Below are positions 929 to 59,506 of a stretch of 64,000 nt of DNA, piece by piece (positions within the stretch are counted from its first letter, which is position 1; the number at the start of each line of letters is the position of its first letter). Origin of the DNA: Utricularia gibba (Eukaryota > Streptophyta > Magnoliopsida > Lamiales > Lentibulariaceae); NCBI GenBank assembly GCA_002189035.1, contig NEEC01000013.1:806001-870000 (forward strand), given 5' to 3'. The position numbers and the translations under genes were made by a program. The notes beneath the pieces are model-generated. The model worked only from the letters and a program-made list of their open reading frames with translations. It had not been told where the DNA came from and ran no database searches.

Positions 929-1213
929 ACCGACTGGAGACGCAAGGAGCACTACCATCCCAACCAGTGAAGAAGTCAGAACACATAAATGCAATATCTT
1001 GGATGATGACGATGACGTAGATGAGGAGATTATTTTAGAGAATCCTGATGATTCTCCAGTCCATAACACTGATGTACCGACGCCACATGAGAAAGTGAAG
1101 GAGAAGGAGAACAAGAAGTTGATCAACCCAAGTCTCTAGTCATTCCACCTCCTTTTCCTACGAGACTTCGAAGGAAGAACAAGGACAAACGTGGACTGAA
1201 AGCATTCCTGGAG

Positions 1214-6760: not shown

Positions 6761-8200
6761 CGGAAATTACTTACGATCCTAATGCTCCGTATGAGTTTTA
6801 TGGGTAAACCGTGCCCATATGGTTTTATTATATATATATATACACATAACTTAATTGGTATGTTTTATTTTTATTAAATCCATGGATCAAAATGAATAAA
6901 ATGCATTAATTTTATTTATTATAAATTAACAAAAAATTTAAAAAAAAGGATGGGTAGATTTATTATACACTCACACATAGTGAATAGATTTCTAAATCCA
7001 TGTTTTGACAATGGATATAATTCTAATAAACTCTGATACATTATGCTACTAATATGACATTTATTAAGCTTGTGTTCTACAAAAAATTTATTTCTGATTT
7101 CTCATTCTCAAAAATATAAATTATTGGTTTTAAAGACATGACACAAAAGTGTAAATTGAAGGGATTGTGTTTTAATGAAAGTTGTATATTTATACAACCC
7201 TAGTTCATTCATGACTAAATCTCCTCCTCAAAATCTAAGAAATTTTAAGTTATTTTGAAAACTACTCACTACAAAAAATATTCTTTAAAAAATTACTTTG
7301 CATAAATTATATATGCTCAAATTTAAAAAAACTATCCCTTTCCAATTTGTATATAAATATACAAGTATCATAATTATAATTTTTTCATATACAATAATGA
7401 TGTTCAGAGAAATGAATTCTAAATAATTTTTTAATAATGTTTATAGAAATTATTTTTATTTTGTGAAATCTATGTAATATTAAAAGTATTTAAATAAAAA
7501 TTATTCATTATAAAAAAGGATTGATTATTATTATTAAAGAATAATAATATATTACTTATTTAAAATAAGTATTTACAAAGATTTTTTTCATTAGTTTAGA
7601 CAATTTATATTTTTTTTAAATGAAATATAAGTAGAACTTATGTTATATAAATTAATTTAGATGAAATTTAGTAATAAAATAAAAATTATTCTGTATTTTA
7701 AAGCATTAATTAATTTTTCACAATTTTTATTATTAAATATTTTATTTATTCATATTTACAAAATTCATATTTTCAAATATTTTGAAACTTAAATATATTC
7801 GCAATTAACGAAAAATACCTTCCATGCGAAGTATGTATATTCGCTCAAATAGAAATTTTCATTAGTAAAATGATAGTATCATCATTGTAATTGCCGATTA
7901 CATCCACTATGTGAATGATAATTTAAAACCAAAAAATCACCACAATAAGTGAATTGCACGGGCAATGTCTATTATTTTTTTAAAATATCATTATTTTAAA
8001 TAAAAAATACTTGACTAAATATTTTTTAAAATATTATATTTAGTAATTTAATTTTTCAAGAATAAATTAGTTTGTTAGACATTAATAAAATTAAATAAAT
8101 CAAATGCATAAAAATCTGTAATAATTGTTATTTATAATGCCAATTCATTTAGTTGAATTATTTTATTAAAAGAATGAATATGTGATATATTTTCAGAAAA
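6761..8200. other. AT-rich stretch without recognisable gene
   Basis: No frame with family similarity and no convincing splice structure was seen on either strand. It holds poly-A/poly-T runs and a short TA run near 6829-6842. It looks like decayed intergenic DNA. Confidence 0.5.
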
Positions 8201-8640: not shown

Positions 8641-11450
8641 TTTATTATTTCTTTGAATTATGTATAGGATTGTTTAGCTAATATTTATCACATAGAATTT
8701 TAAAATAAAAATTGTGCATTGTTGTGCAATCCGGATAGTTGCATATTGATTATTTTCCTAAAAAATCATTTTTTTGGTTATCATGCATAATAAAAAAAGA
8801 TAGATTAAAATACTTTTATTAAAGATATGAAAAATTTCATATTTATAATTTTAGAAGAAAAAACATAAAGGAAAAAAAAAAATTCATACATGAATGCAAA
8901 TTGCTTAAAAAAATCTAAAATATGTTGCAAACTAAATAAGAAGAATGAATGCAAATTGCTTATATGTTGTAAACTAAATACATAATGTTGCAAATTGCTT
9001 AAAAAAAATACTCATACATGAATGTGTAAGGTGTTAATTTTGATAGTTAATTTAAAATAATGAATCAAAGTTAATTAATATAATTAAAAATAATCAAATA
9101 ATTTTGTACTAAAAAAAGAATTCATTTTAACTTTTTGATGGTATATTTTCATGTGCACATTGTGAATACAACTATCTCTCGATATAGTTCTCTATGATGG
9201 TATATCACAAAATATCTCATTTATATCGAAGATAATCAATTTCCTTTTAATTGACATGTCATTGTGGATCATTTCAATTGATACCACCAATTCATGAAAT
9301 GTTAAAGTCTTTTAACGTTGTACATCGATGTCTTCTAGGTCTTGCTCTTCCTCTTCTATAACTTTATCGTCATACTTTGATACATTATGTCTTAGTGTTC
9401 TACATTAAAATTTTTTCATTCTAGGAATTTCTAGAAATCAAGACTCAATATCTTAAAATGAAACTTTACTACTATCGAACAAATTCAAATAGCAGCTTTT
9501 TTGTTCTACATTTAAAAAAGTAATACTTATATTGAATGAATAAAATTTAAATACAAATAATAAATAAAGTAAATTTAAGTCAATGCAAATTAATTAAAAA
9601 AATATACAATTATCAAGCAAAACAAGAAAAATATAAAAAATTGAAATTACCTACAAATAACTAATTTTCTCAAAAAAAAATCAAACGAAGTTCCAATTGT
9701 AAAAGTATTTATACCAAAATGAAATAATGCTTAACAAAGAAATTTTGCCTTTTGGATTGTTTATGTCATATCTTCTTACGATCGTTTGTAGAAAATCAAG
9801 TCAATGATTACACATTAATGCAACCCATATAAAGGATACCCTCCGATCATCCTATCCGTTTCGTAAACTACATATAAACTTAGTACCAAGCTTTTATCGA
9901 GATATATAGCTATTGGTTTTTTTTTTCTATAAGCATACATAGAAATAACAAAAAAATATCAAGATAAAGAGATATGTTTTGCTCATTGCAAATTTGAATT
10001 GGACTAATAGAACAATAATACAATGAATGTTTGAAAAAATTAATGATAAGATTGGTTAGCATAATCTGCAACAAAAATATTCAGTAGAAATAGTCATACC
10101 ATTAGTATCGACACATTTTGGTAATCTGTCATTAATCTTCTTAGCAACCATTTTGTTGAACATTTTGTATTCACTCACAACATCAAAACACATCTTAATT
10201 TTAAGAAGTATTCATTAATCTATTTATTCTAGGAGTCATAAGTAATAGAAGAGAACATTCAAAGTAATTTGAACAATCATTATAATACATTTATATGTAA
10301 GAGAATAATATTTCGGAAAATTATTCTTGAAATAAATTATTTTTTTTATTTCATGAAGTCAATTTTGGAATCACATTCCAATTGTTCATCAAATCTGCAA
10401 ATTTTTGTTCCCAATAACATTGAATTGCTAATTTTGAAAAATCATTAAAAAAACTAGTAAAAAAATTACAATGCACAAGAACTTCGTGGAGTGTGAATTA
10501 TTGAGAATTTATACTTATTGTAATCGCTCAATTGCAACGAAGAGTAGCCCTTAAAAAACCCTACATAACATAATCCTAATTCGTAATTATTCAATTAAAT
10601 TATGATTTTTTAAGGGTAAAAATATGTAGATATTAAATATTACTCATACATTTAAAAATATAAAAAAAAAAAGTTTTCAAACTACCATATATTATTGGAA
10701 ATCAAAGCAACACTTCAAAAGAAAATATTGTCCTGAGTGCTTTTAAATTTTTCAAAAAGCCTAAAAATCTATTTTTTCATAATATAATGTGTTTTCAATC
10801 ATCGCATGTTTTGAATTTATTTTTTGCACCTCGTCAATAATTTTTTTCAGATAATTATATTTAAGCAACACAACAAGATTCATCAACATTGAATTATCAA
10901 ATTACAATCTTGTCTTTTTCTTTGATTAATGATTATACATAAGGTAGAGTACAATTGTCTTTAACACGATTGATTTTTGTCTGAAGATTTAATATAATGT
11001 TTTTGTTATTTTAAAACTATCAAATTCAGATATAATATTTTTTACATTAAATATGTAATAATCATAACCTAGATTGAATACCAATTGCATTTTTATTATT
11101 TGAAGCTAAATTTTTATTCTAATTACATATTTTACATTTTGTATAGTCATGATATGCGAACATCACAAAGAAATCAATTGCAAATAGAGAATCCATGCTG
11201 CTTGCCTTAAAAGGATCGAGGAGTGGAAAATTACTGTGCACACCGTGACACGTGAAGACGATTCAGTGTCGGTATTTTCCAACACAAAAATGTTAATTTT
11301 GGATATATTGCAAAGATAGCGAAATCATTTGTAAAGACATATACAAGTGCAAAAGTGGTGATAGTAAATACTGTTTTTGAAACTGCTACTGGTTATAGAA
11401 TCTTGTATCATCATGTATTATATAGGCTACATAAAGCGTAGCCTATATAG
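8641..11450. other. AT-rich intergenic DNA with small local repeats
   Basis: No gene is supported. Around 8885-9010 the phrase gaatgcaaattgctta and variants recur three times. The short open frames here are low-complexity and lack family motifs. Confidence 0.45.
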
Positions 11451-12431
11451 GTCGCAACACAAATCCCAAGGAGCCGAATATGAACAATGTGATGGCAGAG
11501 GATGAGACAGAAGTCTGAAAATGAGTACACACAAAATCCAAGGAAGAGGAAAAAGGGGATTTTGGACAAAAAGAGGGAAAAGTTGGAGAGATAAGGTAGA
11601 TCTCCCCTATTGGAGACTCACGACGTGATTTCTGGAGAAGGTTTTCTAGGGGAAGAAGAAGGAAGACGAATAGGAATTAAGCTGATGCTTGAAGATTATT
11701 TTCTGTTTTCCAAACATTATTGCTCTTAGCTAAGAATAGCTAGCGACATTTCCCGCTTTCTGTTGAAGTTTTAAGTTTCATGCTTGTTTATTTTTTGCTA
11801 GTCGATTGAAGGATGAGTACATTGTGGATGATGTTTTCTTTTCTATTTTCGTTTATCTTAAGCATGAGTGGCTAAGTACTTAGGAGGTGTCTTGGGGTGA
11901 AAGGGGAAGAAATGTGCTAATCAATCTTAGACCTAATCAGCCATAAGTCACGCCACTTCCTTAACAAACCAGGATAGATCCAGGAAGGGTAAGTAGTGAA
12001 ACCTAACTTAACAACCCTAATTAGAGGTAGACCAAAGATTAGGGGAAAAACAAGAATCTTGGTAGACCTAGATTTTTGTGTATTAGTTGTATAATTTATG
12101 ATTTGTATGAGCTTGTTTAATAATAAGCATACATCCCTAAGAGTCCCAAGGCATCATCCATTTCATTCCAGAAACAACCGAGCTCCAAAACTTATTACTT
12201 TTCTTTACTGTATTCCATTATAATTCTGTCTTAGTCCTAGTTAAGACCAATTCTATCGACGTGACATTGATTTCATACATTAACTTTCACATAGCAGGCA
12301 TCTAGCTCCTTATGTTCGACCCTAGTCCACTATACTCATATTTTTCATATGATTTGATGTGAATTAGGTTTATAAATTTTATTTGATAGGAGAAATTTGC
12401 AATTACTTTTCACTAATTTTTCGTTTATCAT
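11451..12431 (+). repeat. Dispersed ~1-kb repeat, copy 1
   Basis: This 981-bp stretch, from gtcgcaacac to tttttcgtttatcat, is found again in inverted orientation at 52937-53874 with many substitutions and indels. Shared landmarks in order are the aatcccaaggagccgaat start, a purine-rich gaagaagaaggaagac block, aagcatgagtggctaagtac, aattagaggtag and the ataggagaaatttgcaat end. It encodes nothing. The style resembles LTR or leader sequence of a retrotransposon, but no TG..CA ends, primer site or target duplication could be fixed. Confidence 0.75.
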
Positions 12432-28184: not shown

Positions 28185-31150
28185 CCCTTTCTAGTGTCTC
28201 ACCTCTCCGAAGCAGCGGAGATCGGAGCTATGCCTCCGCACTTCGCAATACAAAATACGGAGTTGGCAACATTTGCTAAATTTCAATTGGACCCCTGAAA
28301 TTTCAAAAATAGCATATCATCCCTACATTATTTTTATTAATTTAAATCAAAAGATGATGGATATTTTTATAATGAAAACTAAACGATGGCCACTTTTCTA
28401 ATAAGTAAACGAGATAGTGGCCATTTTTTTCAAAAGACCCTTATTTTTGGCATGTAGCTAAATTTTTTGGGGTAAGCCTGCGCCTGAATAGGATATGGTG
28501 GTGGTTAACAAACCTGCTCCACTTTTTATGGTGGCTGTGGAGATTTTTATGTTGTGGAGTTGTTTGATGCATTATGGTAGTGTATTGCATTACTTTTATT
28601 ATTATTGATTTTTAAATTAATGAATTTATAAATCAATTGTAAACACATATTGTTTGATTTGATATATATATATATATATTAAAATCTTAAAAATTAAGTT
28701 GTTAGAATTGAAATATCTTAAATTATATTTATATTGAATACTATTTTACCTTTTATTATTAAATAATGTTATTTAGGAGTATTTTTTATTTAATAAGAGT
28801 ATATTAACATTTCATGGTTTTAAAATAGCTATTGAAGAGTGGGTGATAATGTGCGGAGGAAGAGAGAATGTAGAAGATAAAATCCCAACATAAATGTAAG
28901 TAATTTTTTTTTTATTTTAAATAGGTATAATAAATATGGTATTTAGTATTTTAGTAATTACAATAATTCAATTGATTTCAAAAGAAAAATAATTACGTTT
29001 TTCCTACATAAATGAGTAATTTATAAGTAAATTAAAAACATATTTTAAAATCACTTATAAATAATAAACGAAATAATTATATATTTATAATTAATTAAAA
29101 TAACTTATAAACAATACATAACACCCTCTATGAAATTATTTTACTGATATCAATGAAAGAGATGTCTGAACATGATTTAATATTAAATTGAAAAAATATC
29201 TAACTTTTGATCTAATTTTATAAATACCTAAACTAATATATTTTTATTTATAATTTACTCTATGTTTAAAAACTACTTTTACCCTTTCAGTTGTACTTCG
29301 TTATTTAATTTTGTGTATTATTTCTATATGATAGTTTATAATAAACATACAATTATTGATTACATAATTATTTTTATTAATAAATTACTTTTATTTAAAT
29401 TTATATTTACTTTACTGTGTCAGAATGGATAAATACAAATAAGCATTTTTTTCAATTTTTTGAGAATATCATCAGATTCTCAATATTCGAGTAACATAAC
29501 ATTTAACAACAAAAATGTCAATCTGCCCTACAATCTTTGAACCTCCAACCATACACGAACAATTTAAACTGCTCACTCTTTCAATATATATCGTGTGGGA
29601 AATTACACTTTTATATAGGATGAAGAAATGAAATCTGAATATATACCCATAGCTACATGAAAAATATTGTAACATGAAAAATTTTAACGTATATAATACG
29701 AGTAGAGGAAGCACAAAAATGAACTTGAAGAAGACGGTGGACATCACTCATTGTAGCATGCCTAAGCACACATATAAATTCACAAAACAGCAATCCCCCA
29801 ACTAGTGGCCATCCAGTGAACTTGATCTACCATCCAATAAAGAACGTTCAACTTGCTACGGTTACTACTGGCATCTTGGTAAAAAATTCTATGACAAACT
29901 AACAATACAAGAGCACGAGCAAAACATACAACTTCCACCTTCGGAGTTTCTACTATAATAACAACATATGTATCATGGTTGTATATTTGAAGGCCAATCA
30001 TAATGAATTATGAATCACCAACAATAAAGTGCTACTCAGGCTCCCATCCAAAATTGTTCGATGCATAGCTCATATCATTGTTGTGCTGTGCATTTTGTAG
30101 ATATACGAACTATCAATATACCATCAATATGAAGATTCTACAGCTTAGAAACATCTTGGAGTATGATGGTGGCCTCTCTGCATGGTTGGAAGAAATTGTA
30201 CGTCTCTAGACTCCATCTCTCCACTAGAACTGTGAGTAGATTCGTGTGTGGTTCCATTCGTAATATAGTTAGAACCTCATAAAAATCTCAATGATCAATA
30301 TATCTCGCAATCCTTTCCTCACAGTATCTACCTACCAAGAAGCTGAAACTATGTTTGAACTACAGTATATTAAGATTTAATGCATATAATATATCATAAA
30401 TAATGTGCACTTGTTACATATTCAACAAGCTCAAATCCTTAGGACTATAAATTTTTAGACGAGAATACTTGTTGATCTATAGAAAAAATATAAATAAATT
30501 AATAAGTAACATATATTAAACAACAAATAATATAATAAATTAATAAATAAAATATATTAATGAAGACCAAAAAATAATGAAAATATATAATTAATAAAAA
30601 AATCTCATATAGATTTATACAAAAGTTAAAAATAAATTAATAAGTATTATATATTAAACAAGAAAAAAAAATATAGAAATTGATTAATAAAATAATTAAT
30701 CAAATAATAAAAATGATTGAAGAATTAAATTGATATTACATTAGTAATGGCAACTTAACTATAAAGGTCTTTAGTAATAATACTAAAAATAGTACAAAAA
30801 ATTTTAATAATTAAAAATAGAATTATAAAATAAAAAAAATGACATTATCCAAATTTTGCTTCAAATTTGACTCTATTTAATGCTGAATATGAATGAAATT
30901 TTTTTTGGAAATAAAACATATATATAGAAGAGGAGGCATGATAGAAATGAATGATGATATATCTATTTAATATACAATCAAAAGGATGATAGTTATCATT
31001 ATTCATGATATATAAAATTAATAATATATAATTATTTTGGATCAATATTATATAATTGACTTTTTCAGAATATTTCACATAAAATAAAATTATCATCATT
31101 GGAAATTGGTTTTGGTTTTGGAAAACATAAAAATTACAAGATAAAATGGG
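28185..31150. other. AT-rich intergenic DNA
   Basis: The first ~120 bp probably contains the glycosyltransferase 5' UTR and promoter. Beyond that no gene is supported. A small hairpin (atggccact at 28386-28394, agtggccat at 28416-28424) is present. The stretch 29460-30440 is less AT-rich but gives only short unconserved frames. Confidence 0.45.
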
Positions 31151-32079
31151 TTGAATGCCATCTATAAATACTCATTAATCATTCTCAAATATCATTTGAG
31201 AAAGTAAGAGAAATCTAGTTTTATTTGAGGAGAAACGAGGTTAGTAATTTTTTTATTTTTAAAATATTTTATTTGAATTTTTAATTATATTAATTTGCGT
31301 GTTGATAATATATATTTGAGATTTTTTGGATATATTTTTTTGACAAATTTGGTTAAATAATTCACTAGATATATTTAATTTGATTTTTTGAAATATATTT
31401 TTGTGTTTATTTTTGATAATATATTTATTTCAAAATGTAACTTTTTAAATTTGATTTGGATTAGATAATTAATTAAATATTTTTATGTTTAATATATATT
31501 TTTAAATATTTTCAAATTTAGTTATGTGTATTTTGAGTGTTAAATTTGATTAAGTATATTGGTTTTTGATATTACTGTATATCTTTTTAAAAAGTGATAA
31601 AATTAATATTTTTTATTAAATTTAAATGTTAAAAACCTTTGGAATGAAAACTTATTAATGAGTATAAGTAATTACATTTTTTTTAATTTTATTATTGTGT
31701 TGTTTATATAATGGAATTTCAATATGATGTTCTAATTCATTTTTGTATCATAAATTTGTTCATTTATGTTTCGTATTTAACGTAATTTTTAGACATTATA
31801 TTTATATAATATATGTTATTTTTGTTTTTCAATTTCACTTATATATGTGTTTTTTATTATATATTTGGATTGTTTGTCTAATTTACTTTATTATTGTTTC
31901 AAATTTTTGGATTCTCAAAATGTATCATTGGATTCTAACTTATTGCATCTACAAAGTTATCATATTTCTAGTTGTTTTTTAAATCGTAAAAAATTGAACA
32001 ATTTATTTATATTTAAACATTATGATCGTATTTTATGTGATTGAAAAATCTTCTCTCTAGTTGTCAAAGTTATAATAAC

Positions 32080-33640
32080 TCTATAAAATGTGTTTGTTAT
32101 TTGAAGTTTTTTCAATGATTGTTCTTCCCATTTATAACAAAAGAACATCTAGAAATCAGAATAAGTGGTTTGAATTTCTTGAAAATAAGTTTAGAGAACA
32201 CAACAAAACTCTTATTTTCAAAATTTAAAGATAGAAGTTTAGGAAAAAAATTGGTTCCAATTTAGAGCATCTTGATATAATGCGGTAGTTCTTCAATTTT
32301 TTGTATGGTTTTATGTTATCACTAATTCTACTGATTGTAGGTATGCCTTATATCATTATTTTGATCGTATGTTGTGTTTTTTTCCCAAATATGAAAAGGG
32401 GTGAAGTTCGTCTCGACTATATGGATTTATTTACTAACGATGAAGAAACTAAGCAACTTAGTTAGGGTTCAACTATTTTGGCTTATATTTATTGTATGTT
32501 AACCGAAAGTTCTCTCTAAGCATATTTATAAAATAATACATCTTCACTTTCTCTCTCACTCACTAAGTACAAAAAATGCACATAGGGTGGTTAATTTTTT
32601 CATACACTAATTTGATAGTGGGTACTTTTAAAAATAACTTGATCTATCTGTGGATGTTGGATTTTAAGTGTACTTATACTACTTTTATAGGTATGATAAT
32701 GAAATTTTCATACATATTTTTTTAATCTTCAAACTATAAAGATTATTTTTTAGATATGAGCTTTGAGTCGAATCTGAACTTTATCACCTACTTTGCAAGT
32801 GCTGATTCTTGGTATATCATATAATTTAGAATATTATATGATTTACGATTAGGGGTAAATTATTTATGAATGTTTTAAACATAAATATATTTTTTGTTAT
32901 AATTTTTTTTAAATGAAAGTAAATCATATATATGAAAAGTATGACTGTAGGTGATAATCAATAATTATACTCTATACCTTATTGGACATGATAATATGAA
33001 AATCAAACTAAATAACTTTTTAATGTACATTTTTTCCTTTTTTTATTTTACAATTAATTTAGCACCCATATTTCAATGAAGATTTTCAGGTTGTTGAAGA
33101 AGATTGCCGTAAAATTTGGACATATTGTGAATCATTGATCTTTTTTAGAATTTTTGAATAACACAAGTTAGTTACTTGCAATTGTAGTTACTTTGACTAT
33201 GATGAGGTAGTTACTTGCAATTGTATCCCACCAAATTCAAAACTGACTATTTGGTAAATCATACTGGCCATTTGATGCATGCAGAATCTATCCTGGAGAA
33301 TCTTACCTAATTAGTCATTCAAATAATCCTTCAATTTTATCATATCCATCACATGATTACTTTTATGTTTCATAATTTACTAATAATCCAATGTCGCCAT
33401 ATCTAACTCATGAGAGTTTTGGTTCATAATTTACCCCTAAACAATAGAGTGCGCCTTATGAATTTCAAACACCATCATGTGTTGGTGGCATTAATATGAG
33501 GTTTTCTTTAATAGCGGCTAGGTCTTTTCCATCATTATATGACAATTTTACCACTAGTTGTACTAGTCTAATCTGATTGCACCTTCGTCTAGCATTGATA
33601 TTAGACAAAATAGATATAATAAAGAAGGGACGAAAAAAAA
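32080..33640 (+). pseudogene. Plant mobile domain (PMD) gene relic, copy A
   Basis: PMD proteins (the MAIN/MAIL1 group and transposon-borne relatives) share a ~350-aa aminotransferase-like fold domain. Visible pieces in order on the plus strand: NKWFEFLENKF (~32160), CVFFPNMK and NDEETKQLS (~32370-32465) followed after a stop by GSTILAYIY, then EEDCRKIWTYC (~33097-33130), and a C-terminal part at ~33510-33640 alignable to the end of copy B. Each piece has a clear counterpart in the PMD at 55461-58290, in the same order. Numerous stops and frame shifts show that it is dead. Confidence 0.65.
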
Positions 33641-34369
33641 CAAAAACTTAATTTCTAGAATTTGTACATTCTTTTATCTTTAATGTTTGACAATATATTG
33701 TTATTAGTACATACAATTGCATAGTTTTGGAAGAATTGATTTTGTACAAAGTTGAAATTTCATAAAATCAAGGGGATTTGATGCTTTGGAGCTAATACAT
33801 AGAGGATCGGTTTGACGCTGATTGATCGTTTCCAATGAGAAAGGTAAGTGGGATGATAAGTTCTAAGCGAATATTGTGTTTATTTCTATGTTTGTGTGCT
33901 TTGAACATTTGTTGTCTGTTCATGCATTTTTCTGTTATAATTGGGTGTAAATCTAAAGTTGATTTTTATAGCTTATTGTATTAGTTTACATATTTGAAAA
34001 GAATTTTCAAAGTCTAATTTTAAAAATTTATAATTTAATGTTGGATAATTGGATTACATGATTCTTAATTCTTTAAATAGATTTACTTTTTAGCTTTCAA
34101 ATGAATTTTTCATGATTTTTGACTAAATTTAAGGCTTACAAAATATAGCTATTTTAAATGACTATAAAAATGTTTTTAATGCATATTATACATAAAATGT
34201 GTGATGTGAATTAGAAAAATAAAAAGAGTTGTGAAATTATGGTTTGGTTCATAATATAAAAGTATTTAATATATTAAATAATAAAAATTTATTAAAAGTT
34301 AATATATATTTATTCAATAATTGTTTAAAATCAAAACCAAAAACACTAGTATAAAAATAATACATTAGT

Positions 34370-36790
34370 CATCCATTTCATTTGAAATTCTAATACTACG
34401 ATGACGACCTCTTCCCTTATGACACTTATTATGATTTAAACATACTTTATCTTAGTTCATATATCTTGTTGACCTAAATTTTGTAATAGTTTATAAGCAT
34501 ACTACATCTGCAACAAATTCAAAGTCAATTCACGAATAACCATTTGGTTTAAATGAAAGTAAACACATTTTTCTACATTTTAGAGAAACAATGTAAATAG
34601 AACCAACAAGACGATCAAGATCCCAATAGTATATCTAAAGTTGTCCCGTGTTTGGTTATTGTTTCTAAAACCATGTATTTTTTTTGTCTGTGAAAATATG
34701 TATTAGTAATAAATGCATTAAATATGAATCATTTATAAATATCAATACAAAATAATTTGAAATAATATACTTTGGTATGATTGAAATAAGAGATCTATTG
34801 AAGTCTTGTAATAAACATTATTTATGTTCAATAGAAAATAGTATCTACGATTCTACAAATTTGATATCTTTGTATTTTTTTAAAAACTCCATTCATGCAT
34901 TCAACTTGATTTGTAATCAAATATCAGTGATGTTTGTCATTGTCAAATGCAAGTGTCTATTTGTTGGTATTTGATAAGTATTAGGAAGATAATGAAGAGT
35001 ATTTAAAGAATCATGAGGACGTTGTTCAAGTTAACATATTAGAAATTATGATCATTCCACCAGGACTAATTATAAAAATCAATACCATTGGAATTAATAT
35101 TGGGTCTGAAGTATTACCATTAAAAGAGTTCAACTATTGGAATCTAAATCTATCTTATAGTCCAAAACATCTTCTCATCTTTCATGTTTATTATTGGACT
35201 TATTAGGCTTTTTTTTTTTTTATTTTGTTGAACTTTGTAATATTAGAACTCAATTTTAGAGTACAAATACTCTAGAGATGTACTCTTTGAAAAACTTTTT
35301 AATTCATTTCATTTATTTTGTGAGGATTTTCCTCTTCTTTGAGTGCTTAAACACTCTTGACTTATCAAACCTTGAGCTTAAAGTGTTCTAAGATTATGAC
35401 TTCCAATTCCTTCTCCTTCTAAAGTATGGCTCTAAATTTTTTTTCTTTCAAAATCTGATTGCAATAGATTCATTTTCTTGAGAGTAGATTTGGGTGGGTT
35501 CTTTTCTAAGCTTCAAAATCACCTTTTGTTCGTGGATTGTTAAACTCTTTAGATTAGAGGATCACATCAATATTATTCATAACCTCAGGACGATTTAATT
35601 ATGGCACTACCACATGATAAGTAAAAATTTCTTTCATATATTATTGAAATTTACCTTATTTGGTATAGCACCAGTTGCATATAAATATTTTTTAATTCCT
35701 TATTTTTTACAAACTTGTAAAGATTGGAAACAAAATGTCGAAGGCATCAATAATGAATATACCTACCATTTATAAATGCATGCAAAGAACTAACAACAAG
35801 CAATATACCAATATGACGATTTGAGATGATTATACATGTCTATCATTGAATAATTAAAACATTTAATTTCTTAATGAACCATGAATATAATTTTAAATTT
35901 TCATCATTCACAATAGCACATGCTACAATATTATATATCCATCAGAATTGTGACAAATATTAATTAATAATTTATAAATAAGATATCATAAAATATATAA
36001 ATAAAAATTCTAAAATTAAAAAGATTATTTTACATAAAGATGTGTTACATTAATGAAAAGCACTAGAACACATAATTGATAATCATCAAGATAAGGCTTG
36101 AAAGCTCAAAATATATATCGAAATATTTTATGATTAGATTGTGTATCATGAATAGCCCACTCTACAATTGTAATGAGATTTATCACTTGAATCGCCAGCA
36201 TATATATGGCAATTTTTTTATTGAATATTTTCAAGACTCATGAATAAGTTAAAATGCATGTTGCACGACAAAACATGTTTTATCATAATTAATGATATAA
36301 TAATATCTGACTTGTATCTCAACTATTACTTTATCTATGATCAATTTTAATATAAGTAAATAGCTTTAAAATTTTAATTTATATCAATAAAAAATAAAAA
36401 TATATTATCAAATGCTATAAAAATATTATGTTGCATATTTCACATGTAATCTATTAAATCTCATCTAATAAATGTCATTGAAATGTTTCTATGTATGTTG
36501 CCCGCTATTTCACTTTCACAAGAATGCGACTAAAAAATTTTGAATTGTCAAATCCCGTCTCTCTTCGATTCGTATAAATGAATATGAAAGTCACATTATG
36601 TTACTAGAATAGAATAACACAAATGCTTTGATTTAATTTCGCTCACATAGAATTAAAAATACTTCCTAATGTGTCAAATGTGAACACAAAAATAAACTTC
36701 TTCTTTGGATATATATTTCAATCCAACTTTTAAGACGAGATTATCAAGATTATAGCTCATATAAACACATCTGATTGCAAATTCTTTTGC
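34370..36790 (-). pseudogene. MULE transposase relic, copy A
   Basis: The minus strand matches the plus-strand MULE at 51260-54450 in four blocks: ~36790-36650 (SYNLDN, then EEVYFCV), ~36610-36540 (the CxFHIRLY-like region), ~36260-36120 (an AIHDTQSNHKIF-like stretch) and 34990-34780, the conserved motif before the SWIM finger (TTNQ.E.MNG.F in copy B). A C-terminal block, 34700-34370, has YWDLDRLVGS and an Arg/Gly-rich tail. The SWIM zinc finger present in copy B is deleted here. Stops interrupt every block. Confidence 0.6.
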
Positions 36791-37180
36791 AACTATCTGT
36801 TCTCCACTCTAAAATAAAACAACCAATCTTTCAGATTATCTATTCTAAATTGATATTTCAAACTTGCTACATGCAAAATAAGAACTCATGGCAATTGAGC
36901 AGTGATATTCAGCTTTTCTTAAACCCATATTTATTTGTGTTTTTTGTTGGCATAGGCTTAGATTCCGATTCGAAAGTTGAAGAATCAAACTTGTATACTG
37001 TCACATTACTGGATGCCATCATGATATCAAATGAAATGAGTGAATTAATTAGGATAAGAATGCATTGTTTCATTTATAATTCTTTTGTAGAATTATTTAT
37101 TTACCTTCATATTCACGAGATGTATTTAAAAATTAAAATTGAAAATTCATGTGGGTATTTACTTTCGTTTCCATAAAATA

Positions 37181-38743
37181 TAATTTTCTAGAAGGAAAGA
37201 GTGATCTTTTCTATTTGTGTCGTTTTCTTGGTAGTTATTTGGAAATAAAGTAAAAAAAGACCGTAAACTCGATTTAGGGTAAATATCTTTATATTCATTG
37301 TGATAAATAATGAATTTTTATCGAAATTAATTAGTAACTCTTATTTTAAAATGAATCACATAAAATCTCAATGTTTATTTTCTTAATTTGATAATCAATT
37401 TATTATTTAGTATCGATTATACATAATATATAATTAATGATTTAATTATCTTTCTAAAAAGATTTTTTTATATGATTTTGAAAAATATGAAAAATTAAAA
37501 AATACTTATTATTTTTTATTTTAAAATTAAATTTTTCCATGACTTATTTAATGATAATAGTATAAAATTATTTATGACTAACATTATTGAAGCATATTAT
37601 TTTATCTTAAATGAATAATATTTACATTCATATAATATGAAATATATGATTTTGTCTTAAATTTTATCTTGTATAGAATTAAAATATGAAATTCATAATT
37701 TTATAAAAAGAAATCTCGATATTTATTAAATAAAAATTTACAGTGACCACATGTGACTACTTATTTTACAAAAAAACTTGTTTTTTTTTCGTTTCTATGT
37801 ATTGCACAGAAAAATGACAAATAAATCATGAATTTTGGAGTTAACACAAATGAAATTTCTAGTTTAATGATATATTTTTTTTAATAGAACAATTCAGTAT
37901 TTGAAGATATTATTTAATATGAATTTGTCTTAAAAATTTTTGATATTTTGATTTTTAATGAACTTGTGAAGTAATAGGAGTTCCACAAACCACTATGATT
38001 TATGTTATGTGGTAATAGGTTTTAGGGTTTTAGGGAAACCCTAAATACTATAATTTGTGAAAGGATATGATGTCAACTAAGCACTACAATTCACGTTCTT
38101 TGATGTTTAATTAAACTTATGAAACAACATGAAAAATTAAATTGTAATAATTGATTTTAATTAACTAAAATGATATATTAGTAATTTTACACAAAAATTT
38201 ATTAAAATCATACTTTTATACTCAGATAACAAGCATATTTTGATTTTAACTTCAAATAAATTATAACTATCAATCAAATATGAATTAAATTTTAAACACT
38301 CAAAATATATTAAATTAAATTCAAATAAACTAAGCTCAATTTAACATTATACACACCAACCAAAGGCATCTAGATTCTAGAATGATTTATGTACATCAGA
38401 GTGTACTTTTGCAGTTTAACACTTGGCCGCAGATTAACCAATAAGAATCATTCAGGCATAGCCTTATTGTTACACTAAAACGAATGTTCCACATTACTCA
38501 GGTTGGATTAGAAACAACTTGGACGCCAAAACATGCAACCAACGCCACACAAAGGTTCTAAAATTAAGCTTAATCCTCTACAGTCTCCCCTCATTGGATT
38601 TCATGCTATCTAACAAAAGAACGCACAGCCACCAAGTAGAGTTTGCGATATAGCGAGCATACACACGCCTCTGGCAACAAGGTTTACCTCATCTACAGAC
38701 TTATAACACACCTGGGATAAGCTCAGCTGCTTCTAGTTGATCC
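37181..38743. other. AT-rich intergenic DNA, CIPK 3' flank
   Basis: No gene is supported. From ~38390 the composition rises towards the CIPK stop at 38744 and should include its 3' UTR. Confidence 0.45.
38020..38046. repeat. Telomere-like motif with short hairpin
   Basis: Two TTTAGGG-type units (ttttagggttttaggg) are followed immediately by the complement (aaaccctaaa), forming a small snap-back. Such motifs are common in plant DNA, and this one lies in intergenic sequence. Confidence 0.6.
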
Positions 38744-50500: not shown

Positions 50501-51250
50501 GCTTATTTGGTATTCAACATTTAATAAATATCATAAGCTTTAGAAACAAACATTATCTACTCCATGAACAATATTTTATTTTGCTTGGCACCAAACTGAG
50601 GATTCAATCCTATAATAAATTGATTCAACTTTGTGATCTCAAAAAAACTTATCAGACAAATGGTTAGTTTGCAACCATTATATCAGACTTCCACAATGCG
50701 TTCAGTTATGTATATGATTTAACAATGCTCAAGTCTCCATGCTTGAAATTGTATAGATCTTGTTGTACTTGATAGAATATATTGTTATTTAGCTATCCAT
50801 AATGACTCTCCATTGTTATCCACAATTCGTATGCATTGATACGTTCTATACAATAGGCAACAAAATCCTTCAAAATGGAGTTTAGCAACCAAGACATAAC
50901 CATAAAATCATCCTCACCCACAAGTCATAAGTGGGGTGTGTAGGATTTGGCCTCAGTACATCTCCATACACCGATCATGTTTATTCTTTGCTTTTAAAGC
51001 CCGGTAAATACTAGGAGGCGAAATCGGTTATGTAGGCTACTTTATATTGTGAGTGTGGAAATTGGGCTGTTTCACGTCCATGTGTGGAGAAAGTAAACAA
51101 TCTTGCATGCAAATTTTCTCCATTGAAAAGTTTCAATAATACAACAACATCTACTTCTCTTTCAATACAAGATTCTGATTCTTCATTTTTTGAATAAAAA
51201 CATGAGCCAGTGACAATTGGAAACATTGATGAAGATGGGTTTCAAGAAAA
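47572..51250. other. AT-rich intergenic DNA with unrecognised relics
   Basis: The stretch after 47572 should contain the FAF 3' UTR. The less AT-rich patches at 48600-49100 and 49300-49950 give short open frames (48607-48798 minus, 49566-49763 minus) without family motifs. 50165-50667 (plus) has two overlapping open frames that I cannot place; they may be 5' parts of the MULE that follows. Confidence 0.4.
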
Positions 51251-51259
51251 TTTTGATAC

Positions 51260-54200
51260 CAATAATCAATTGTTATGAGTTCCTGTTTTACATGCAGCAA
51301 GTTTGGGGTATCAGTTTTCAGGTAATGCTTATGAAAGATTGGCTATTTTATTCAAAGGGGAGAGCCGATGTTAGCCAATGAATTACCTACTAAACGAGTA
51401 TATATAAGCTATGATCTTGATAATTCTATTCTGGAAGTAGGATTGGGATTTAAATCTAAAGAGGAAGCTTATTTTTGTGTTCTTCATTGGCACATAAAGA
51501 AGCCTTTTTAGTTTTGTGTCGTTGAAAGTAAATCAAAGCATCTGGTGTTAAAATGCTATTCTGCTTTAGTGACTCAATGTGAGTTTCATATTCGTCTCTA
51601 TAAATCGAAGCAAGATGGAATGTGACAGTTCAAAGTTTTTTATCCTCATACTTGTAGAAATGGAATTGAGGGAAACAAATATAGAAACATCTCTGTAAAT
51701 TTCATTGGACGAGATTTGACAGATTATGTTTGGAATATGCAAGGTAATACGATTTTTTATTATTAATTTTTGGTTTAATTAGCATTATTTTTTAAAATTT
51801 ATTTATTTATTTTAGAGTTGACGGTTCGTAAGGCAATTGCTGAGATACAAATCATGTACAATTATATTATTGATTATGAAAAAACCTGGTTTGGTGTTCA
51901 ACGTGCATTTGAACTTGTTCATGGATCTTGGGATCATCAATGAATAAATTCCTTCATCATATGTTTGCGCTCCAAGTGACAAATCCGGAGACAATTGTAG
52001 AATGATCGATTTATGATACGCAATCGGGACTTGATCATAAGATATTTCGGTATGTTTTTTGAGCTTTTAAGCCTTGTGTAGAGGCATATCAATTGTGTGC
52101 CCCTGATCCTTTCAATTGATGCAACACATCTCTATGCACGGTAATATTTCTACCCTCGTATAATGTTTTGTCATTTTTCATAGTCTAAATATAATTTTGA
52201 TATACAGGTATGATCATAAATTATTAATTGCTATTTGTCGCAATGGTGGTGGGCATATTATACCTGTTGCATATGCTCTTGTGGATGATAAAAATCTTGA
52301 ATCTTATTCTTGGTTTATTGAGCAATTGGATTATTTCGTTATTAAATGACAAGTTGGTACAATTATCTCTGATAGGCATTCAGGTATATTGGGCAATGTG
52401 AGTTCTAAAGAGGTATTCAATACCGGCAGGCTTCATCATTGATGGTGTCTTAGACATTTTGTGTCTAATTTTAGCAAGTCGGTAAAAAAAAAGAAACTGA
52501 AAGATTGTTTATATGCGGCTGGTGCTATTCCAAATTTGGTGAAATTCCAAAGTTACATGAAGAAAATAATGACTTATCAACTAGCAGCAGAATGGTTAAA
52601 TCGTATGGAGATTTTGAACAACATGAATAAATGGGTAAATGCATACGATAATGGTAAGCGTCACGGATATTTGACGACGAATCAAGTGGAATGCATGAAT
52701 GGCGTATTCAAACAAATACGAAGATATCTCATATGCAGCATTGTAGATTCCACTTTTTATTGGATTCAAAAAATGTTCATTAAAAGACGGCAAAAGGTCG
52801 CTCATTTCAATGATAATAGAGAGGTAAATTATGCTATTTTTAATTGCAGTACTATGCTATTTTTACTAATTCAAATTTTTTTGTAGATGTTTACAGATGA
52901 GACGAACTCATGGTTTCATACACAACAACAAAAGGAATGATAAACGAAAAATTACGCAATGTTGTTAAATTGCAAATTTCTCCTATCAAATAAATTTATA
53001 ACCTAATACACATTCAAGCATAAAACAATTATGAGCATAGTGATTAGGGTTGAACACGAAGAGCAGTTGCTTGCTATGTGAAAGTTAATGCATGAAATCA
53101 ATTTCACGTTGGTAAAATTGGTTTTAGCTAAATACAGTAAAGAAAAGTAATAAGTTCTGGAACTCGGTTGTTTTTGGAAGGGAATGGGTGATGCCTTGGG
53201 ACTCCTAGGGGATATATGCTCATCATTAAACAAACTCATACAAACCACAAATCATACAACTAACTCACAAGATCTAGGTCTACCCGGATTCTTGTTTTTC
53301 CCCCTAATTTTTGGCCTACCTCTAATTAGGCTTGTTAAGTTGGGTTTCACTACTTCCCCCTTCTGGATCTATCCTGGTTTGTTAAGGAAGTGTCTTGACT
53401 CATGGCTGTTTAGATCTAAAGATTGATTAACATGTTTCTCCCCTTTTTACCCCAAGACACCCCTCCTATGTACTTAGCCACTCATGCTTAAGATAAATTA
53501 AAGTGGAAAAGAAAACATCACCCACAGTGTGCTCATTTCCCAGTCAAATACCAGAAAGCAAACAAGCAATTAATGTGAAGTGTCAACAAAAAAACTGAAA
53601 AATGTCACTAGCTACTCTTAGCTAGGAGTAATGTTCTTCGAAGACAGAAAATAATCTTAGAACTTTAGCTTCGTTCCTATTTGTCTTCCTTCTTCTTCCT
53701 CCCAGAAAACCTTCCCAGAAAATGTGTTCGCGAGTCTCCAAGGGGAGATCTACCTTCTCTCCCCACCTTTCCTCCCTTTTTGTGTGTACCACTTTTCAGA
53801 CATTTGGACTCATTTGCTGCTACTACACTGTGCATATTCGGCTCCTTGGGATTCGTGTTGCGACCTGCACTGCATTGCTCGCGTAAAACTATTAGAAGGT
53901 TGAGACGAAATCGTAGATTTAGTCCCAACTAAGACTAAAATAACACAATTACGGTACTTATGCGCAAAAATATAAAACTAGGTAGTAAAACTAAATTTTT
54001 GTAGCACAATATGAATCTTTTCCATGCACTCAATCACTTAAAAATATGTGTTATCAAGGAAGATCGTTATCAATTGTATTATTGGGATCTTGACCGACTT
54101 GTAGGTTCTGTTTACATTGTCAGCAGAAAACGTGCTAAGCGGAACCGACAAACTGTTGACTTACAAGCCCAAATATGTACATGTAGAAAGTGGTTGATCT

Positions 54201-54450
54201 ATCATCTTCCTTGCGCTCATGCTCTGAAATGTGGGAAAATGTGTCGAATGCCATTAAATCAAATGGTCATTTGAGAATCGACCTTGGATTTGTTACAAAT
54301 GCAGTATGCTGACAAGGTTTTACAAGATTTAGGCCAAAAAGATGGATGGCCAGAGGTTCAATGGTACTTGTATCACAATAAACACCGAGAGAAACATGGA
54401 CGAGGCCGACGTCATGGCACTTGAATACCAAATGAAATGGACGAATAATG
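51260..54450 (+). pseudogene. MULE transposase relic, copy B (interrupted)
   Basis: This is a Mutator-like DDE transposase of plants. In order: a MuDR N-terminal domain (KSKEEAYFCVLHW ... KVFYPHTC), a helical region (FIGRDLTDYVW | ELTVRKAIAEI, with an intron gtaatacg...tttattttag from 51745), then the MULE core with SIDATHLY (~52108), a second intron (52142-52207), LLIAICRNGGGHIIPVAYALVDD, a second Asp in ISDRHSG, and a 3' part in frame 52461-52886 with TTNQVECMNG. After an insertion (52937-53874) come YYWDLDRLVGS and a SWIM zinc finger, CTCRKWLIYHLPCAHALK, at 54174-54227. Many nonsense codons are present (for example at ~51510, 51624, 52001 and 52347). Confidence 0.8.
52937..53874 (-). repeat. 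Dispersed ~1-kb repeat, copy 2
   Basis: The reverse complement of this 938-bp segment matches 11451-12431 over its whole length, with substitutions and small indels. It lies inside the MULE relic, between the core and the C-terminal SWIM part, so it arrived after the MULE. No target duplication was recognised, so the true ends could lie a little further out. Confidence 0.75.
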
Positions 54451-54619
54451 TGTTTTGTGATTTCTAGTATTATTTTTATTCTATCTGAATATCATTTTAA
54501 TAAATTGATAAGTGTCGTAACACTAGAAATAATCATGAAATTCTCTTAAAATTTAAATAATATTTAAACAATACTTGAAAAATTCAGAAAAACAATATCA
54601 AAAATATTACTCAAATTAA

Positions 54620-55245
54620 TTACATTTATATTTATATCTAAAATATCAACTCAATATTATTTATTAACTTTATATAATAAAGTTCATATTATATTTTTTT
54701 TATCATTTTGTAGATAAACAGTATTTTGATTACTTTATTAGACTTAGTCTTTGCTGGTGCACACATGCGGTGTGGCATTAGGGGCGGGGTAGGTTCCCCT
54801 CTCAGAGCGGGGCGTGGCATGGTGTGAGGGCACATGTCTCGGTGCACTCCCCCATGCACGCGCATATGCCTGCCCATCGCGAGGAGCCTGCGGATGTGGC
54901 GACACGACTGCAACGAGCGAGATGGCAAAGCAATGCTGCGCACACGTGATGCTCGTGTGACCTCCCATATATTCTCTTTGTGCTTCACCAATTGCACATG
55001 CGGAAGCCTGCCATGGTGAGGAGTGCCGGGCATGGCGAGGGAGATGGTGAAGTATTGCCACACATGCAGGACGATTGTCATTAACAATATATATATTGTT
55101 TGGAAATATAAATAATATTTTGATTAGTTTGTTATCAATTTTAGATATCTCAAATTAGTTACATTAATATTATATTTATATTTATATCTAAATATCATAT
55201 TAATAATATTTATTAAATTTATATAATAAAGTTAATATTAGATTT
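54620..55245. repeat. Direct AT-rich repeats flanking a GC-rich island
   Basis: The stretch ttatatctaaaatatcaactc...tataataaagttcatatta (54628-54690) recurs as a close variant at about 55180-55240. A third, weaker relative lies near 55320-55350. They bracket the GC-rich island. Confidence 0.55.
54742..55080. other. GC-rich island in AT-rich DNA
   Basis: A ~340-bp segment is rich in CG dinucleotides and GC words (gggcggggtagg, gagcggggcgtgg, gcgaggagcctgcgg), between flanks that are nearly all A/T. It starts with gcacacatgcgg and closes with a similar gccacacatgcagg. Open frames on both strands look composition-driven. Origin unknown. Confidence 0.6.
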
Positions 55246-55460
55246 GTTATCATTTTTTTGAAATATAAACAATATTTTTATTAGTTCATTGTCACTTATA
55301 TATATATCTCAAATTAATTACATTAATACTGAATTTATATACTAAAGTTAAAAACAATATTTTGAAGTTAATTTAAAATTATAAAGTTTGGATTAGTTTG
55401 AAAAAAAAACAATAAAACTAATTTAAAATGAAAATTACAAACATTTAGACATCCAATCTT

Positions 55461-58290
55461 CTACTCATGCTCATCATCTTCTTCTGCACCCCTATTGCGC
55501 CTAACACCAATACTAGAAGTAGGAACAATCAAGTTAGGCCCAGGAGGAACGGGTGGAGTTGTAAACTGCCTGTAAGCCCAAGGACAAGTCATTCTCGCCA
55601 TTGAAGAAAAAACCATGTTTTGATAGATATTTGGTAACATATCAAATCATATCTCTATAAAGATCTCATCTTGTGGAGATATGTATATGTTCCAAATCTT
55701 ATCTATATGAAATCTTTTATTTTGAGTTTAATCAATATTAATCTCAAAATAACTCTCTATTTAATTTATCTACTTTACTAATTACATCCCATGTAATTGT
55801 GTCATCCTATTTTATATCAATGAGTGACTTCACTATTGTGTGTGACCCTATAGGCTTCTTCAATCAAGGCCGTAATAATGGATTTATTTATTAACTCTTA
55901 ATTAATCAAATCTATCATTATCGATCATGAGTGATGTCTAGCAACATATCATGATCCCCAAGATTAAAGAATAATCAAGTGAACTGATTGAGACTTTCCA
56001 TGACCAGCCACTATGCAATGAACAACTTTCATCATACTTATATCTCATTCGATACCAAAACATGGGTGTGTGTTTTTATGATGTATCGAACTTATAATTG
56101 CATTCAAGCACTAACACTCAATGACCTACTCAAACAATTCGAGTGTCATTACCCTGGGCCCAGGGCTTACTGTTAGGCTTTGATGCAATTATTTGAGATA
56201 TGATCTCATCGCTAACATAAGTGATGAATTCTTTATTGATCAATTAACTATCTCCAACCTTAAGGAGTCACATCCCTACTCATCCATACAAGGCAAGCCA
56301 TGGTTAGGCTCCCATTAGTAATGAGAGAAAATATGAGCTTAAGATCAAGATAACTTTATTGAACTCAAGTTTAAACTTATTTGCACGGCTGTCATATTAG
56401 AGATCTTGCTACTGACACTTGGTTAGCTTCTCATAGTAGTATCTCGAAGATGAGTCATCCAATGAATTGATTCTCTAATCAACACCTACATATAAGTTCT
56501 AGTAATCTCATTATATCAATTGTGAGAACCATTGCCTAAACAATTTAGGGAACTTAATGTGTGTCAACTTATCCGTATTTGTAATATCCTCATTTCACAA
56601 ATACTCTAGCCAGGGAGTTTTTTAACTTAAGCATAAGTGCTCGAAGAATCTCACATTACGATCTTATCATAATTTCTGTAGCACATAGATTAAGTAGAGG
56701 ATTTTATCAATGATATAAATTTGATCACAATTCAAAATAAATATCAAAAGATAAGATTTGTCAATAAGTTGATTGTCTCTAGAACACATACACTAACAAC
56801 TGAGCTACAAGGGTTGTGAGAACGTGTATCTGGATATGATTCTCAAGTAGACTCATTATGCATCATCGGCCAATATGAACTACCAAATAGGTAGTTGTGC
56901 ATCTGGTGAGAGGCTATCTCAGCTAATTGTCTCATCATGTTTGAATCCGCAAATGTCATATTTGTCATACGATATTGAATCATCAAATCAAATTTATTAA
57001 TATAGCAAATAATAGTATAAACATGTAGTCTTATTGCATAAGATAGAGGCTGTGCCACTCCACCTAACCATCCAGTACTGAATTCAATAGGGGTGTTGCC
57101 AAGAAATCTTATTGTCACCCTTTCATACCACTCATAATATTCCTTCTCAAAAACTACACAGCCATTAGAGTGATAAAGATGGTCCATCCCAGCATTCCAA
57201 GTCTCAAAAAATTGAATATTTCTTGATTCCCAACTCTGATCCTTTGCAGTCCAACGACTTGGTGGATGATCAGTCGGATTGGCTGGTATACATAATGGTA
57301 ACCCAAACTGATGAAAGACTCTATGAATATTATGATGCTTAACAATCCAGAAAAATAGTAAGGGCCCACAATATGTCCAAATCTTCCGACAATTTTCTTC
57401 AACATCTCGAAAGTCTCTAGTGGAGTAAGGTCTCCACTTAAATTGTAAAAATTGTTATTTAAGCAATCATAAATAAAAAGGATGCTTTGAATAAATTTAC
57501 CTTTTCGTGTCCAATAACATCTAGACTATCTCTGTAAATAAGAAGTTGATTGTGAGCTATAGTCGTTCTATTCATAATTGTAGCATATCTTTCATATTAA
57601 AGAAGAATAATTAACAAATAAAGTGAATTATATTTCTATCATAAAGAAATTAGTGCATTCAACCATAAATCATATGACATACCCGATTGTATGATACATC
57701 CGGAAAAGGCATACGATCTATGAGTGTAGTGTTTGAATTTGACTCCAAGCCCATAACTGAAAAGGTAATCATAAATCATTTGAAAAAATTAAAAAGTAAT
57801 AATTTTCATTAACAAACCTGTAAAAGTCGCATAGGGCCGCCGATGGTCTCTCTTCCAATTATGCATCCTTCACTCAAGCTACGATACAAGTAAGCTAAAA
57901 CTGTTGAACCCCAAACTAAGTACCCCTATTTCTTCGTCATTTGCGATCAAATACAGATAAGAAATACAACATTTATTGCCTTTCATATTAGGGAAAAAAA
58001 CCCCAAAAATGATCAACGCGGCAATACAACGAGCATACCTTAGTATATCTTGATGATCTGAATCAATATCAACTTTCTCTCCAAACTCCTTAACATAATC
58101 TTTAAATTTGGGAAGCGAAAATTTAGACGCACTTCTTAGCTGAGGCTCTCTCCATCCAAATTTGTTTTCAAGAAATTCTATCCATTCATTTACCTTCCGA
58201 GATGTCCTTCTGCTATAGATGGTATCGCCACCCACTCGAAATCCCCAAATGATGGATACATCCTGTAGCGTAACTATTGCATGCAAAATT
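55461..58290 (-). pseudogene. Plant mobile domain (PMD) gene, copy B (interrupted)
   Basis: On the minus strand: the PMD opening ATVTLQDVSII-like motif (here AIVTLQDVSIIWGFRVGG, 58283-58230), NEWIEFLENKFGW, LRYARCIAALIIFGVFFPNMKGN and NDEE (to ~57880). After a gap come ENCRKIW, VFHQFGLPLCIPANP, SRNIQFFETWNAGMDHLY and YYEWYERVTIRF (57400-57080). The last part, at 55620-55461, reads MARMTCPWAYRQF, a Pro-rich linker and an acidic end with a stop at 55461. The repeat at 55627-56830 separates the last two parts. The frame changes between parts could be introns or damage. It is closer to intact than copy A, but with the insertion probably not functional. Confidence 0.7.
55627..56830 (+). mobile_element. 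LTR-retrotransposon-like repeat fragment, related to the 4301-5606 palindrome
   Basis: The first ~460 bp (55627-56085) matches the arm of the palindrome in the same direction (tcttgtggagatatgtatatg, tttgagtttaatcaatatta, aactctctatttaatttat). The end (56715-56780) matches the palindrome's centre (gataagattcgccaatga). The ~640 bp between is unique to this copy, so it represents the less rearranged form. No coding frame. It splits the PMD gene of copy B. Confidence 0.7.
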
Positions 58291-58577
58291 AAGAATATTT
58301 TTAAAATATTGATAATCCAATGAAATAAACGAATTACTAAATATATATTGATAAATCATTTAAAACAAATCAAATATTAAAATATTCTCAAATCACAATA
58401 AAACTAAATATATTAGAATATTTTAATTTCTAAAAATTTTGCTTTAAAAATTACATAATTAAAATATAAAAAATATATGAAAGACTAACAAAAAATAAAA
58501 TAAAATAAATCAAATTATATAAAATTTTTACAGCAAATTTATTTAATATGAGTAAAAAAATTCATAACAAACTTATA

Positions 58578-58875
58578 GAAAAATAAAATATAATAAATAA
58601 TTATACAATTATTAATTAAATTAAAAACATAATTGAATTATATAAACACACTGTAAATAAAAAATATAGAATTCAATCTAAATAACACGTTTATTAATTA
58701 ATAAATAAATAAAATCCTATATTTTATTTAACACTAATTAATAAATAAATAAACAAATTAACAAAAATATAATACATAATCAATGAATTTTTGAAGAAAA
58801 ATAAACACTAAAAGATAAATTCAATTAGTAAGTAAACAATTATTTCTAAAAATGAAAATAAAAAAAAATAACAAT
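58578..58875. repeat. AT-rich direct repeat, unit 1
   Basis: This 298-bp sequence is repeated at 59010-59307 with only two or three differences, an offset of exactly 432 bp. The intervening 134 bp contains a partial, more diverged relative. Near-identity indicates a recent local duplication. Confidence 0.85.
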
Positions 58876-59009
58876 AAAATATAATAAATAATTATATTTT
58901 ATATAATTATACAATTATTATAATTAAATTAAATTAAATTAATAAATAAATAAATATAATGAAAAATAAAATATTATACAATTATTAATTAAATTAAATT
59001 AATAAAAAT

Positions 59010-59307
59010 GAAAAATAAAATATAATAAATAATTATACAATTATTAATTAAATTAAAAACATAATTGAATTATATAAACACACTGTAAATAAAAAATATA
59101 GAATTCAATCTAAATAACACGTTTAATAATTAATAAATAAATAAAATCCTATATTTTATTTAACACTAATTAATAAATAAATAAACAAATTAACAAAAAT
59201 ATAATACATAATCAATGAATTTTTGAAGAAAAATAAACACTAAAAGATAAATTCAATTAGTAAGTAAACAATTATTTCTAAAAATGAAAATAAAAAAAAC
59301 TAACAAT
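59010..59307. repeat. AT-rich direct repeat, unit 2
   Basis: This is the second copy of 58578-58875. The visible differences are cgtttaataatt versus cgtttattaatt, and one base in the terminal A-run. Confidence 0.85.
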
Positions 59308-59506
59308 GAACCTCAAGTGGCCTCGCCTCTCTCTAGTTGTAATCATTGAATGCGTAAAACTTGGGTTGTTATACCACATGCAAAAAAAAACATGAATAAA
59401 AAACAAACAAAATATAAACACATTTTATTGCACTCTTTTAGTCTAAAATATCAACTTTTGCTATCTACTTTATTAGACCAGCCATCTGTGTAATGTTGGG
59501 TAGGAG

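Follow-up and report, generated by a model that had tools for sequence, protein, structure and literature searches.

Decayed Mutator-like transposons in the genome of Utricularia gibba carry a plant mobile domain gene tail-to-tail with their transposase

Descriptions of plant mobile domain (PMD) genes inside plant Mutator-like elements (MULEs) go back to Babu et al. 2006 (cited in PMC5418596). The table of MULE groups in Dupeyron et al. 2019 notes for some of them a PMD 'in most, often antisense' or 'in antisense for most of them'; these are groups 42 and 47-50, with MUDRAVI2 and MUDR among them (PMC6446971). Two other systems pair a MULE transposase with a second gene: maize MuDR, in which mudrA and mudrB are convergent and have their promoters in the long inverted repeats (PMC3440606), and the VANDAL elements, which carry VANC, an experimentally demonstrated anti-silencing gene with a DUF1985 domain (PMC5735166). 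Here we analysed a stretch of 64,000 nucleotides of Utricularia gibba (the window; contig NEEC01000013.1, positions 806,001-870,000), in which a first-pass annotation had recognised two copies, A and B, of a convergent pair of MULE and PMD genes. The window was aligned to itself, the 100-Mb assembly was searched, both with domain models (PMD and MULE) and with the DNA of the better copies, and relatives were read with both of their ends. The anatomy of the elements, their co-inheritance and the selection on their PMD make it very probable that these copies are fossils of an autonomous two-gene MULE transposon with a PMD gene. The association itself is known in plants, as the first-pass annotation had said, and so is the layout, which it had left as an open point: antisense PMDs in plant MULE groups were already listed (PMC6446971), and the arrangement parallels mudrA and mudrB. 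What is added here, for one genome, is the anatomy of the element, its co-inheritance and the selection on its PMD.

The U. gibba elements, compared with the group descriptions of Dupeyron et al. 2019, resemble those groups in several respects: the transposase has a SWIM finger, targets are duplicated over 9-10 bp, the inverted repeats are of a length tabulated there, and the PMD frequently lies on the strand opposite the transposase. A difference is the 11-bp duplications in one of the two families (F1). The PMD frame within the element, often antisense in those groups, was found here at 30 linked loci, always antisense and downstream. As in the capture of PMD-C by MULEs (Ikeda et al. 2017, PMC5418596), a host-related PMD lies inside a MULE; however, that study reported PMD-transposase fusion proteins in grasses and Amborella, whereas here the PMD and the transposase are distinct genes on opposite strands. 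Two convergent genes, a transposase and an accessory, lie between inverted repeats as in maize MuDR, although the accessory is a PMD and the repeats measure about 80 bp, compared with about 215 bp in MuDR. Arabidopsis VANDAL21 with VANC (PMC5735166) is likewise a MULE with a self-serving accessory gene and short repeated motifs in its non-coding parts; unlike the PMD, VANC has DUF1985, which is not a scored PMD, and the element PMDs gave no DUF1985 match.

Copies A and B lie about 14 kb apart, inverted relative to each other. In the window self-alignment they aligned in opposite orientation, with about 70% identity over the transposase and weaker similarity over the PMD, and the sequence they have in common lies both within the two genes and between them, in agreement with the alignment of the copies put forward in the first-pass annotation. 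Each of them also matched, in collinear order, L031, an element present from end to end elsewhere in the genome. This collinearity and the Pfam domains bear out the gene content, strands and convergent layout first assigned to the pair, and for copy A, collinear with L031 over 31067-37195, the placement of the PMD on the plus strand and the MULE on the minus strand. Both window copies are old and broken, and they belong to one MULE family, which carries a transposase and a convergent PMD gene. Membership in the MULE superfamily is documented by MULE (PF10551), MuDR DNA-binding and SWIM domains (MULE and SWIM both above cut-off in L018), long inverted repeats and target duplications of 8-11 bp.

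Better-preserved relatives revealed the ends of the elements. Mutator-like elements duplicate 8-11 bp of their target, usually 9 bp. Elements of F1, the sister family, have a length of about 5.7 kb and end in inverted repeats of about 80 bp (95% identical between the ends of L020), flanked by 11-bp target duplications, which are exact in L017 (TAGAAATTGCA) and L020 (CAGAATTTAAG) and imperfect in L030 and L021 (10/11 each) and L018 (8/11). Elements of F2, the family of the window copies, measure 7.3-8.3 kb, with inverted repeats of about 60-100 bp, present at both ends in L024, L031 and L032. Their target duplications of about 10 bp are imperfect, L031 (ATACATAGAT/ATTCATAGAT) and L032 (TTAACTGAAA/TTAATTGAAA) each having a single mismatch. 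Because the same inverted repeats and target duplications enclose both genes in these relatives, the MULE and the PMD form one mobile unit; the single unit proposed in the first-pass annotation is thereby borne out, with duplications of 10-11 bp. The search for intact two-gene copies that it had suggested led to relatives with both ends preserved, such as L031 and L032, but all copies read are decayed. Short palindromic motifs lie directly inside the inverted repeats, CTCGATGAGTCATCGAGA in F2 and an array with a 29-bp period around GGCTCCATCAGTGATGGTGCC in F1; the palindromic arrays, located for instance at L025 1521-1662 and L018 2039-2181, differ in sequence by family and recall the repeated motifs read by VANC proteins. 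Within L024, the F2 interior (2276-6706) is inverted relative to its two ends.

Genome-wide there were matches to the PMD model at 47 places and scored matches to the MULE model at 150; comparison of the two match lists placed 11 MULE matches less than 6 kb from a PMD match, all 11 of them convergent. Loci were then grouped from DNA searches with both genes of each family. PMDs accompanied 21 of the 25 F1 MULE loci and 9 of the 18 F2 loci, hence 30 of the 43 MULE loci of the clade, and every one of these 30 PMDs was downstream, antisense and tail-to-tail, typically with a gap of about 1 kb. Given two possible orientations, 30 of 30 has a chance probability of 2e-9, a value that measures the fixity of the layout and not the number of origins, since the loci are related. 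The linkage of MULE and PMD is far beyond chance. The first-pass annotation had regarded a MULE that regularly lacks the PMD as telling against a single unit; PMD-less loci do occur (4/25 in F1, 9/18 in F2), but at least three of those in F2, L035, L036 and L039 (all F2b), have the transposase joined directly to sequence of the element's PMD-side end, and L035 is bounded by inverted repeats at both ends, within an exact target duplication of 10 bp (AAAGAAAGAA). Because the PMD-side end is kept, these three loci are internal-deletion derivatives and not a separate PMD-less lineage. For L033, L034, L037 and L038 the DNA read showed no far end, and loss of the PMD is likely.

The histories of the two genes agree. 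Among 57 transposase-domain sequences from this genome, the F1 and F2 transposases formed one clade with a support of 1.0, apart from all other sampled MULEs; copy A fell in F2a with L025, and copy B in F2b with L033-L039. In the PMD tree, which used the three host PMDs of this genome as references and no outside sequences, the element PMDs were separated from the host PMDs with a support of 0.98, and the nearest host PMD was L028, with 37% identity to F1 and 34-39% to F2. L028 is an ordinary gene locus, next to which the following open frame reads as a histone-fold NF-YB protein. The split between F1 and F2 is the same in both gene trees, as expected if the genes had been inherited together since before it. 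In the simplest history suggested by the trees, a PMD became associated with this MULE lineage once and the two genes were then inherited jointly; two captures from closely related host genes may have occurred instead.

We also compared amino-acid identity with that expected from nucleotide divergence. Between copy B and F2a, the excess in identity reached z values of 5.3-7.2 for the PMD and 3.6-6.4 for the transposase, with the copy A row of the PMD test discarded, as the search had picked a neighbouring F1 fragment. Within F2 subfamilies z ranged from -1.5 to 1.4; within subfamilies copies mostly drift neutrally, and a few F1 pairs gave z values of 3-4 in either gene. The comparison was repeated on a DNA-only alignment to exclude a bias from protein-guided alignment, and the PMD differences were concentrated at third codon positions: 60/47/100 for copy B versus L025 (P=1e-5), with a third-position excess also for copy B versus L024 (P=4e-5), L023 (P=1e-4) and L031 (P=0.01), four comparisons that all include copy B and are not independent. 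The codon pattern is a clear sign that the PMD has been under purifying selection between subfamilies. Because both amino acids and the third-position bias point to conservation between subfamilies, the element was using its PMD while it was active, and because of the purifying selection the PMD is taken to be a working part of the element and not a captured fragment.

These data bear on how the two genes came to lie together. PMDs occur in Gypsy elements too (PMC5418596, PMC9289625) and the window is repeat-rich, so two independent elements, for example a MULE and a Gypsy retrotransposon with a PMD, could have come to lie side by side by chance; yet in several copies both genes share their enclosing inverted repeats and target duplications, and the layout is convergent in 30/30, which leaves this explanation a negligible probability. 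A Gypsy origin of the PMD's location was likewise considered and rejected, as the PMD sits inside the MULE inverted repeats. A single recent duplication of one locus, which would deprive A and B of their value as independent evidence of mobility, is suggested by their closeness and inverted arrangement. It is hardly credible, however: the two are 70% identical, yet A clusters with L025, and B with L033-L039, and the copy B transposase is 87-92% identical to copies on other contigs, so that the tree refutes it. A and B represent two subfamilies and not a recent duplication.

Passive carriage is a different matter, for MULEs do capture host sequences, the closest relative of the element PMD is a host gene (L028), and the PMD drifts mostly neutrally within subfamilies, all of which would suit a functionless host-gene fragment taken up by Pack-MULE style transduplication. 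Against it, F1 and F2 alike have retained the PMD without any change of place or orientation, and its codon-position bias and between-subfamily amino-acid conservation are as strong as those of the transposase; passive capture is largely refuted and very unlikely. Membership among the Pack-MULEs was rejected, given the transposase and the purifying selection on the PMD between subfamilies. As the main alternative role, the PMD could assist transposition or reinsertion structurally or mechanically, in the manner of mudrB and unconnected with silencing. Co-selection of the PMD with the transposase would fit such a helper, whereas MAIN and MAIL1, the known PMD proteins of hosts, function in gene silencing (PMC5418596), which indirectly favours a silencing-related role; the helper is a real but somewhat doubtful possibility. 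Several points weigh against an autonomous two-gene transposon with a selected, anti-silencing PMD. Nine of 18 F2 MULE loci are without a detectable PMD, and two of them, L033 and L037, show no right end in the DNA read. Selection is not separable from neutrality within F1 alone, where the ratio of nonsynonymous to synonymous change was 0.44-0.69 in frame versus 0.45-0.93 in non-coding frames. All copies read are decayed, so that expression and promoter position are presumed, and the anti-silencing role is tentative.

In the window, copy B is an F2b-type PMD-MULE with nested insertions on the plus strand (51017-59337), collinear with L031 in the blocks 51163-52933, 54056-54566, 55408-55619 and 56800-59305. 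Its left terminal inverted repeat (GGCGAAATCGGTTATGTAGGCTACTTTAT...; 51017-51105, plus strand) is 85.6% identical to the L037 terminus over 51016-51105, and L035 has the same repeat at both of its ends. The right inverted repeat was not found; homology ends at 59337, to which the copy therefore extends at least. A search of the outer flanks, suggested with the first-pass annotation, thus recovered the left repeat of copy B, the sole inverted repeat surviving in the window; for copy A none rose above chance in the scan, its repeats being eroded or lost, and target duplications were not recoverable for either copy. On the plus strand, MULE and SWIM scored above the Pfam cut-off and DBD_Tnp_Mut 1 bit under it; the minus strand carries the PMD, and the domains are spread over several frames, so that both genes are broken. 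The plus strand given to the copy B MULE was correct, but its extent as one gene body (51260-54450) was not: a 5' part (51260-52933, plus; DBD_Tnp_Mut in frame 1, and the MULE domain in frame 2 after a frameshift, with the model match at 52206-52469 containing 2 stops) is separated from a 3' part with the SWIM zinc finger (54056-54566, plus; Pfam domain and L031 alignment) by a foreign insertion of 1.12 kb at 52938-54055 (unstranded). The insertion (TGATAA...TTATCA) is called solo-long-terminal-repeat-like because it has TG..CA termini, which lie within a short inverted repeat, and AAGGAA on both flanks. The same repeat occurs at window positions 11449-12431 and in or beside the PMD-MULE copies L023, L024, L029 and L031.

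The copy B PMD was likewise right in strand (minus) but not in its limits, first set at 58290-55461. The frameshifted domain occupies 57029-58280 (minus; PF10536 at E=4.8e-13 and 4.8e-4 in two frames, and a match in the genome search), followed by the C-terminal tail at 56800-57028 (minus), which matches the tail of L025 and L031; the open frame 57454-56843 extends beyond the domain. The segment between the genes, or PMD 3' region, at 55408-55619 (minus) aligns with L031 3120-3332, and the original limits had included a foreign repeat at 55618-56073 that is 88% identical to window positions 4553-5003. That repeat corresponds to part of a larger one at 4298-5609, of which 4298-4863 and 5055-5609 are 93% identical and inverted. 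Copy A, with an F2-type body on the minus strand by the orientation of its transposase (31067-37195), is collinear with positions 159-7894 of the 8066 of L031. It comprises a decayed PMD-domain region (31885-33166, plus; 74-78% identical in DNA to the PMD exons of L024, L025 and L031), a PMD C-terminal tail region (33192-33718, plus; aligned with L031 2798-3341, which contains the PMD tail) and a transposase region (33998-36996, minus) whose parts, 33998-34971 and 35570-36996, are separated by an insertion. Adjoining copy A is a third PMD remnant of the window, a fragment of an F1-type element (29531-30734, minus) that is 73% identical to L018 4025-5205 and contains a PMD match at 30075-30284. 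An Rfam search of the region gave no match. Elsewhere in the genome, L060 is a divergent PMD-like frame of 314 amino acids at C496:540302; the 2.2 kb read there contained neither a MULE domain nor a retroelement domain.

The ancestor would have been an autonomous two-gene Mutator-like transposon, its first gene encoding a MuDR-type transposase with MuDR DNA-binding, MULE and SWIM domains, and its second gene, read from the other strand so that the two stops face each other, encoding the PMD protein. Each gene begins a few hundred bases inside one inverted repeat, and by analogy with maize MuDR each repeat may act as an inward-firing promoter; the tail-to-tail layout would then be invariant because each end would promote one gene. 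The PMD protein would interfere with, or imitate, the host's PMD-based silencing for the benefit of the element. Host MAIN and MAIL1, both PMD proteins, act in transposon and gene silencing, and Ikeda et al. 2017 suggested that captured PMDs could counter silencing (PMC5418596). By this analogy the PMD could be an anti-silencing accessory with a role like that of VANC in VANDAL elements, a proposal we regard as plausible though short of probable. A bolder version, in which the PMD is a dedicated antagonist of host MAIN/MAIL1 and PMD and DUF1985 are distant homologues, would unite the antisense accessories found in several of the plant MULE lineages in a single ancient family of anti-silencing proteins, whose members may recognise the palindromic motifs just inside the inverted repeats; we consider it unlikely. 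The host PMD L027 (3804-3998) matched DUF1985 weakly, below the cut-off (E=4e-4), over a conserved WG..LA.LYR region, and it alone did so, so that distant homology is possible as a lead only. A DUF1985 search of the genome found none, control genomes being unable to show the sensitivity of that search; none of the papers searched mentions both PMD and DUF1985, and a sequence search of the PDB found no solved PMD structure.

Host PMD silencing of transposons runs by a still unclear route. A transposon lineage in which selection has maintained a PMD of its own, within a fixed two-gene layout, is a natural counterpart for testing the use of a PMD by transposons against that host route, and the boundaries of the elements, the subfamilies and the selection data given here for the family can serve such a test.

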